Assembly: GCA_919902985.1 (NCBI GenBank)
Contig: CAKKSC010000017.1
Span: forward strand, 1-64,000
Source of the DNA: Desulfuromonadales bacterium
GTDB taxonomy: Bacteria > Desulfobacterota > JAENJC01
DNA length: 64,000 nt
Direction of reading: 5' to 3'
Under the pieces are notes generated by a model. That model did no database searches. It was not told the DNA's origin and was given only the letters and a program-made list of their open reading frames with translations. How positions within the stretch are numbered: the stretch's first letter is position 1; the number at the start of each line of letters is the position of its first letter. Of the stretch, positions 49,201 through 51,631 are shown piece by piece. A program made the translations under genes and the position numbers.

Positions 49201-49596
49201 TTAACGGCCCCTAAACTTTATGACCTCAAGAGCGGATATATTCTTAAAATGTTTGTAATTTGCACTTGCCAAGGCTGCGCCGTTTACGAGGGCCGACGCT
49301 GCAATGAGAGCGTCCACGGTTCTCAGCCCATCGGACATGGCGTGCCTTTCCAGTAAATGTATGGCCTTTTCGGAGATGCGTTCGTCAGGATGTATGACTT
49401 GGCAGATGTTTTCCCTGATGAACTTCTTGACGTTCCTCAGTTCTTCTTTATTCATACACCCCTGCACCAGTTCCATCATGCAAAGGGCGCTGATGTGCCT
49501 ATCCGGGTATGGGACCTTTTCCATGAATTCCATGGCACCGGAGTCTCCCCTGAAATACCATATAAGGACATCGGTATCGAATATTATCTTGGAAAT
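49201..49596 (-). CDS. PIN-domain (VapC-like) toxin, apparently initiating at AUU
   Basis: Upstream in-frame extension (AUU)SKIIFDTDVLIWYFRGDSGA-MEFMEK... holds the first conserved PIN Asp. The track start (49533) omits it. SD GGAGG at 49609-49605 lies 8 nt from ATT. Confidence 0.8.
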   Translation of the reverse strand: MSKIIFDTDVLIWYFRGDSGAMEFMEKVPYPDRHISALCMMELVQGCMNKEELRNVKKFIRENICQVIHPDERISEKAIHLLERHAMSDGLRTVDALIAASALVNGAALASANYKHFKNISALEVIKFRGR

Positions 49597-49823
49597 CGCT
49601 CTTTCCTCCTTTCAGCGACCCATTCGGCCACATTTTTCATATCCTTTCTGTCCTTCCACATCGCGAAACCGACGGGGCTGAACTCTCTTTCCTCCTTCAG
49701 GAGAGGCTTGATTACTGCAATGGACTTGCCCCTGAGAGTAATGGTCACATCCCTCCCTTTCCGTATGTTTTCCAGGATTGAAGATGTTTTGCTCCTTAGC
49801 TCTTTTGCAGTGGCTGTTTTCAT
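49584..49823 (-). CDS. Phd/YefM-family antitoxin
   Basis: MKTATAKELRSKTSSILENIRKGRDVTITLRGKSIAVIKP; overlaps the PIN gene. Confidence 0.88.
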   Translation of the reverse strand: MKTATAKELRSKTSSILENIRKGRDVTITLRGKSIAVIKPLLKEEREFSPVGFAMWKDRKDMKNVAEWVAERRKERFPR

Positions 49824-49834
49824 ATATGTCTCCA

Positions 49835-49858
49835 AGTGTATATTTGGAAGTATACACT
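49835..49858. promoter_or_regulatory. Palindromic operator candidate for the TA operon
   Basis: AGTGTATA tttggaag TATACACT, directly upstream of the antitoxin. Confidence 0.75.
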
Positions 49859-49906
49859 ATCTTGCGAAGGTGTCAATTAAAAGTTGATTCCAATTCATGC
49901 CAGTAA

Positions 49907-50162: not shown

Positions 50163-50222
50163 CGACCCTCTATGGTCCGACCCTCTATGGTCCGACCCTC
50201 TATGGTCCGACCCTCTATGGTC
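50163..50222. repeat. 15-bp tandem repeat, 4 perfect units plus a partial fifth
   Basis: (CGACCCTCTATGGTC)x4, then T, then CGACCCT. Confidence 0.97.
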
Positions 50223-50228
50223 TCGACC

Positions 50229-50960
50229 CTAAGCTTTACTAATCTCCTCCTCGATTTTCTTCATAATGTCATTAAGATAAATTTCCGTGTTATCTATATA
50301 TTTTCGGAGGTGACCTGAAGTTTTAAACCGCATTTTTTTACATGATTCAAATAGGTAATCCCTCTTTTTACGCGAAAACAATTGCATTGGATAAATCGTT
50401 AGATGCGAGGAATTACCTTTTTTTAAATTACACTTATAATCCTCTATAAAGACTTTTTCCATTTTATGTTTTCCTATTTCATTTTCAATCGAGCCATGCG
50501 CGATAATTCCATAAAACTCTAATTCTTCCTGTAATAGAAAAGCATCAATTAGAGGCTGACCAAAAAAGATTGAATTACCAATATCAAATGTCATCACTCC
50601 AAAGGCTACCGCCCCTTTATATGGAATTCCTTCTACAAGTAAATCGCTGGCAAATGCTGAAACAGTACAGATAAATGACTCCAACGAGTTTTGGCTATCA
50701 TCCTTTGAATAAATAATAATGCTGTCAGAATAGTTCGTAGCTTTTACTAAATCAGTAGTTTCTTCAGTCCACTTCACATTCGCATTACTGTATACCTTTT
50801 TATGAATGCTTAGCATCATGTCGTATATATCATTATGGTCCGTTCTTAAGATCATGTCTTTAAATCCCATAATATCAATATATGCAACGTAACGATTAGT
50901 AGTTACTTCCCAATCACCCTTCAATGATAGATTTCGCAGACCACCTACTTTTATTATCAT
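50229..50960 (-). CDS. Nucleotidyl-cyclase-like hypothetical protein
   Basis: RYVAYIDIMGFKDMI, NYSDSIIIYSKDD, IPYKGAVAFGVMTFDIGNSIFFGQPLIDAFLLQEE; resembles the class III cyclase-like fold. Confidence 0.6.
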   Translation of the reverse strand: MIIKVGGLRNLSLKGDWEVTTNRYVAYIDIMGFKDMILRTDHNDIYDMMLSIHKKVYSNANVKWTEETTDLVKATNYSDSIIIYSKDDSQNSLESFICTVSAFASDLLVEGIPYKGAVAFGVMTFDIGNSIFFGQPLIDAFLLQEELEFYGIIAHGSIENEIGKHKMEKVFIEDYKCNLKKGNSSHLTIYPMQLFSRKKRDYLFESCKKMRFKTSGHLRKYIDNTEIYLNDIMKKIEEEISKA

Positions 50961-51176: not shown

Positions 51177-51375
51177 GCCTTTCTTTGCCGCCCTTGACGC
51201 CCGCTGGCCTTTTCGTAACGCCCCTTGTTTCCTTTCTTAGCGAGATAATGAAGCTGAAATGATTATTATACAGGGGAGAAAAAGAGTCAAGAAACTTTAT
51301 CTTCGTAAACCATGAAGAAATGGGAACGGATTTATGGTGATTGTCTTACGATATTAAAGAGATGAAGCTCAACTG
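51177..51375. repeat. 199-bp perfect direct repeat, copy 1
   Basis: By eye identical to 54371-54569 from gcctttctttgccgccc to gatgaagctcaactg. Confidence 0.95.
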
Positions 51376-51631
51376 CCTTCCGGTCTTTCCCATCTCTTTC
51401 CTGTGGGAGAAGAAGAGGTCTGTCCTGCAAGAGGTGCATATATCTGAGATATCAATGTCAGCCACACCGGCCTCCCGCAACTGCAACTGATTCGCCTTCG
51501 GGAGGTCTACATGCCATTTATTGCCATGCTGAACGGCAACGCCTTCTCTCCGGGCGACGGCAGCAACCACCTCATCTCCGACCTCATAGCAGCATGGACC
51601 TATAGCAGGCCCAATGGAGGCTGGGAAACGT
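51346..51631 (-). pseudogene. Truncated 3' fragment of a pgeF/yfiH (polyphenol oxidase family) homologue
   Basis: PASIGPAIGPCCYEVGDEVVAAVARREGVAVQHGNKWHVDLPKANQLQLREAGVADIDISDICTSCRTDLFFSHRKEMGKTGRQLSFISLIS aligns with the C-terminus of the intact copy. Confidence 0.92.

Follow-up and report, generated by a model that had tools for sequence, protein, structure and literature searches.

A VapC-like PIN toxin gene without a canonical start codon and its probable initiation at AUU within the overlapping antitoxin gene

Overview

The window analysed here (64,000 nt of contig CAKKSC010000017.1 from a Desulfuromonadales bacterium) contains a VapC-like PIN toxin gene that lacks a canonical start codon, an absence shared by nearly all members of the clade to which it belongs. 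The translation-start arrangement is conserved and unusual, and the VapC module is otherwise ordinary. That the toxin starts at some non-canonical codon is very highly probable, and that this codon is specifically the AUU at codon 1 is probable. Hence, of the start at AUU 49596 proposed in a preliminary description of this DNA, a start other than ATG, GTG or TTG ahead of Asp7 stands, and the identity of the codon is supported rather than proven.

The toxin reading frame

The toxin ORF (49201–49596; this and all other features of the operon are on the minus strand) comprises 131 codons counted from ATT as codon 1 and ends with TAA at 49203–49201. The frame is open from an in-frame TGA at 49614–49612 to this stop, and contains no ATG, GTG or TTG between the TGA and the ATG at codon 22 (49533–49531). 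Its 5′ end consists of GGAGG (49609–49605), the 8 nt spacer AAAGAGCG and then ATT TCC AAG ATA ATA TTC GAT, where ATT (49596–49594) is the proposed start and is followed by the residues SKIIFDTDV. The antitoxin gene lies directly upstream and overlaps the toxin, which is in the −1 frame relative to it, by 13 nt. A recount on the minus strand agreed with the preliminary description on the GGAGG 8 nt before ATT, on the upstream TGA with no ATG, GTG or TTG following it, on the 13 nt overlap with the antitoxin stop (TAA, 49586–49584), and on the position of the called ATG at 49533 past the catalytic motif, Asp7 and strand 1 both being upstream of it.

Residues 4–120 of the toxin match the PIN domain PF01850 (E 1.5e-15), and the PIN acidic sites D7, E42 and D95 are invariant in six members, the fourth site being N113. 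An AlphaFold2 model (pLDDT 83) places strand 1 at residues 4–6, followed by Asp7 and helix 1 at residues 8–15, with residues 1–3 unstructured. When the model was compared to the PDB, almost all matches at E ≤ 0.001 were VapC or other PIN-domain proteins, and the best were VapC toxins, including the Shigella VapC mutants D7A and D7N; with codon 1 counted as Met, the catalytic Asp is residue 7, as in Shigella VapC. The scores against the NCBIfam VapC equivalogs NF047959 (36.1 bits, cut-off 80) and NF047863 (30.3 bits, cut-off 140) are both below the curated cut-offs, and the toxin was therefore not filed under either subfamily. A PIN domain with acidic active-site residues and an upstream overlapping antitoxin gene, conserved in relatives, point to the toxin of a Phd-VapC type II toxin-antitoxin operon, for which toxicity and its neutralisation are predicted.

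The ATG at 49533 is the first in the frame and the likely choice of an automatic gene caller, and is unlikely to be the true toxin start. It lies beyond Asp7, and a protein starting at Met22 would, according to the model, lack Asp7, strand 1 and helix 1. Codons 6–21 are the most constrained stretch examined across the clade (pN/pS 0.155 versus 0.303 for codons 22–60, with synonymous sites near saturation); they are under the strongest purifying selection and are therefore translated, which also argues against a silent, degenerate toxin. The Met at codon 22 is not conserved in relatives, several of which have no canonical codon at all in the first ~20 codons. Initiation at 49533 was rejected on conservation and structure, and either this or a degenerate gene is most improbable.

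Antitoxin gene, operon signals and surroundings

The antitoxin (49584–49823, 79 aa) is of the Phd/YefM type (PF02604 PhdYeFM, E 3e-8) and starts with ATG at 49823, preceded by the Shine-Dalgarno (SD) sequence GGAG at 49833–49830. A predicted sigma-70-type operon promoter, TTGACA-16-TATACT (49849–49876; 11/12 consensus), overlaps an inverted repeat, AGTGTATA-8 nt-TATACACT (49835–49858), that is perfect in the window and is probably the antitoxin operator. Arms of the GTATAC type resembling this repeat were found upstream of most antitoxin genes of the clade, and a −35-like element recurs at a similar position in most of the relatives.

Genes for Ffh and CoaE lie just past the 3′ end of the toxin gene. 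Elsewhere in the window are a tandem repeat (50163–50230; 4.5 copies of a 15 bp unit, 98 % matches), a 243 aa ORF without a Pfam match (50229–50960) and an apparently truncated gene (51346–51570) whose open frame matches just the final quarter of PF02578 (laccase-like polyphenol oxidoreductase).

Relatives and the loss of the canonical start

Five relatives sharing 62–67 % identity with the toxin were obtained from a genome collection, where they are labelled Deltaproteobacteria, Nitrospinota/Nitrospinae and Nitrospirota/Thermodesulfovibrionia, and a single-phylum survey added further relatives (59–67 % identity). All of these have the same Phd antitoxin tail and the exact 13 nt overlap, and the canonical start is missing in nearly all. 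Codon 1 is ATT in L001, L012, L015, L016, L052, L053 and L055, ATA in L013, L014 and L054, and GTT in L057, L058 and L066, which share one arrangement. In L056 (61.7 % identity), codon 1 is GTA and codon 4 is ATG, retaining an ATGA overlap, and L053 has ATG at codon 5. In L012 and L016 the toxin frame additionally extends upstream without a stop as far as an ATG or GTG at codon −9 or farther, inside the antitoxin gene.

Wherever the record has a name, the assemblies are all metagenome-assembled genomes, and a sequencing or assembly error concealing an ATG was considered, as the preliminary description had advised. It was rejected because related loci of different groups, assembled separately, share the lack of a canonical start and have differing codons at the site; the absence is neither chance nor error, and the likelihood that an ATG is concealed is negligible.

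Among more distant relatives, the toxin usually begins at codon 4, with ATG or GTG. There, the antitoxin stop is in the context NTGA in the canonical starters and NTAA in the clade, and a change from NTGA to NTAA would be a simple path by which the antitoxin stop is kept and the toxin start ruined. A phylogenetic tree supports one broad group containing the clade and resolves little of its inner order.

Three further relatives differ in other ways. L020 (51 % identity) has ATG at codon 2, and there the antitoxin gene stands in another frame relative to the toxin and overlaps it for longer. L062 (~41 % identity) also has no ATG, GTG or TTG at codons 1–7, the antitoxin TAA leading into ATC to give TAATC, a site at which TAATG could stand in relatives, and is possibly an independent loss of the canonical start. 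L060 has one in-frame TAG inside the toxin gene and is probably a decaying copy. No other close copy of the toxin was found in its own genus, order and class group (three genomes), and a search of phages gave no match. Plasmids yielded two distant matches and viral contigs one relative at 40 % identity, none of them members of the clade.

Evidence for initiation at codon 1

Little can be concluded from conservation of the triplets themselves: an Arg-Phe/Tyr in the antitoxin fixes codon 1 as xTT or xTA, and xTA at codon 4, like the A after it, is imposed by the TAA stop. Conservation of ATT as such was therefore rejected as evidence, and the proposal that AUU be examined in homologues had a divided outcome: ATT or ATA is present in 10 members from eight lineages, and others have GTT or GTA. 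As the toxin triplets are dictated by antitoxin coding, the informative sites are the synonymous positions of the antitoxin gene.

The toxin SD, GGAGG, lies within the antitoxin Arg-Arg codons AGG AGG and would form a duplex of −9.3 kcal/mol with the anti-SD. Taken alone it is weak evidence, because AGG accounts for 53 % of the Arg codons in this genome, and the same antitoxin tail written with this genome's codon usage has an equally good SD by chance in about one case in three (P ~0.3). SD strength in this genome alone is not significant and was rejected as evidence; the significance comes only from comparison across lineages. An SD match 4–8 nt before codon 1 was present in all 10 members with AUU or AUA. 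Although synonymous sites elsewhere have nearly reached saturation, the last Arg codons of the antitoxin have kept their form: the Arg at −7 is encoded by AGG in 8/8 AUU/AUA lineages compared to 29/59 Arg codons in the interior of these genes, and the Arg codon at −4 has A as its third letter in 8/8 compared to 21/59. Eight of the nine lineages without ATG at codon 4 combine a good SD for codon 1 with A as the first nucleotide of that codon (expected in 1–26 % per lineage), giving P ~1e-8, or 2e-4 for the A alone, under local codon usage and assumed independence; these values are optimistic and ~1e-8 is overstated because the lineages are related, and the inputs are rough, with small codon samples for some genomes.

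The live rival is initiation at the AUA of codon 4 (49587–49585) or codon 5 by termination-reinitiation, a near-cognate start having been left at the old position when ATGA or GTGA became ATAA or GTAA. Codon 4 is where most canonical-start relatives begin, L056 still has ATGA there, and the rest of the clade has ATA or GTA at this position, where it overlaps the antitoxin stop (ATAA in the window). Residues 1–3 are mostly absent in relatives that start at codon 4, strand 1 of the model starts at residue 4, and canonical starts occur close by in L056 (codon 4), L053 (codon 5) and L020 (codon 2), all of which count against codon 1. However, the TAA stop dictates NTA at codon 4 and the A of codon 5, which makes their conservation uninformative, and no SD serves codon 4 in the AUU/AUA members (−0.2 to −3.8 kcal/mol; −2.1 kcal/mol and not usable in the window). 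In these members the codon-4 SD is usually worse than under random recoding (P 0.57–0.97), and a start at codon 4 or 5 accounts neither for the AGG at −7 nor for the A kept at the Arg wobble position. The GUU members are a separate case: in the two tested, as in some canonical codon-4 starters, the best SD is spaced for codon 4, with GAGGU suitably placed for GUA, and in this lineage the start may be the GUA of codon 4 or the ACG of codon 3. Overall, initiation at codon 4 or 5 is rather unlikely. AUU at 49596 is favoured because the SD is suitably spaced for it, the Arg wobble position is conserved as A, and codon 4 has no SD of its own.

The short, fixed overlap and the −1 frame of the toxin are also what programmed −1 frameshifting at the end of the antitoxin gene, leading to an antitoxin-toxin fusion, might produce, and C AAA AAG is present in L055 and L054. 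The full slippery heptamer was found in no lineage, and partial matches are confined to a few with none common to all, so the heptamer was rejected. In distant relatives the toxin is encoded separately and has its own ATG, and a fusion would fix toxin and antitoxin at one to one. Frameshifting is thus very unlikely.

The start of infC in the same genomes

The gene for initiation factor IF3, infC, is the textbook case of a non-canonical start, beginning with AUU and being autoregulated in Escherichia coli. In the toxin-carrying genomes its start (infC loci L068–L081) is AUA, AUC or AUU, with AUA the commonest, and is 6–8 nt after GGAGG in nearly all; several have no canonical start at all near this position. 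In the genome from which the window comes, ATC is 8 nt after GGAGG and an ATG follows only 2 nt after the ATC, which makes this particular infC start ambiguous, and in L070 a TTG is also present, and closer. The infC genes of these genomes are a useful case for start-codon annotation in their own right.

The infC-like arrangement put forward in the preliminary description is borne out, the same design being found in infC of the same genomes. The toxin gene likewise lacks a canonical start ahead of essential residues, and its AUH codon is preceded, at normal spacing, by a strong SD. Because infC is so arranged, AUH initiation with an SD spacing of 6–8 nt very probably operates in these bacteria, as far as can be judged from sequence.

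Proposed mechanism and significance

The best explanation, and a probable one, is weak, infC-like initiation of the toxin at AUU or AUA, coupled to translation of the antitoxin. After loss of the canonical toxin start in the clade, a single promoter would transcribe both genes, the antitoxin would be translated frequently and the overlap would deliver ribosomes to the toxin start. Initiator tRNA would then begin at AUU 49596 (AUA in some relatives), guided by the strong SD in the C-terminal Arg codons of the antitoxin, and, initiation within the last antitoxin codons being rare, the toxin would stay below the antitoxin. We infer the AUU initiation, its low yield, the coupling to the antitoxin and any sensitivity to IF3. 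By analogy with the action of infC on itself, the AUU/AUA start might place this VapC family under the start-codon fidelity check of IF3, a tentative suggestion that we consider doubtful; if it were correct, the toxin would rise relative to the antitoxin whenever initiation fidelity was lost or IF3 fell, and the module would be a sensor of translation-initiation stress.

To our knowledge, a non-canonical start is very seldom found in a conserved gene, infC being the textbook example and sigR a proven one. A toxin clade that as a whole lacks a canonical start would mean that weakness of the start codon is a heritable means of holding a toxin under its antitoxin. The overlap would be the enabler, as NTGA can become NTAA with no effect on the antitoxin stop, and the toxin start is thereby destroyed. 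Such toxins are perhaps under-counted, because gene callers limited to ATG, GTG and TTG would truncate them past the active site.

Comparison with known systems

The operon, with its Phd/YefM-type antitoxin, resembles VapBC type II toxin-antitoxin systems in the PIN fold, the gene order, the gene overlap and a palindromic operator at the promoter, and differs in belonging to a clade whose toxins lack ATG, GTG or TTG. With infC it has in common the design GGAGG, 6–8 nt, AUH, but the protein is unrelated, the toxin start is nested in an upstream gene and the link to IF3 is by analogy. Initiation at ATT is about 0.3 % of that at ATG in E. coli, as quoted in PMC10666635, and a published type II toxin with an AUU or AUA start was not found in the open-access literature. 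The close precedents are KacT4 (GUG) and sigR (GTC). The KacT4 GNAT toxins start with GUG (CUG in one case), overlap the antitoxin by 14 bp and have a toxicity affected by the start codon (PMC9431474); these are also type II toxins with a suboptimal start in overlapping genes, but GUG is a canonical alternative start and AUU and AUA are far weaker. In Streptomyces, the GTC start of sigR is repressed by IF3, which keeps SigR below RsrA, as has been proven experimentally (PMC5472188). There too, a non-canonical start holds the active partner below its inhibitor, an anti-sigma factor, although the genes and the codon are different, the inhibitor gene is downstream, and the proof for sigR is experimental where the case made here is sequence-based.
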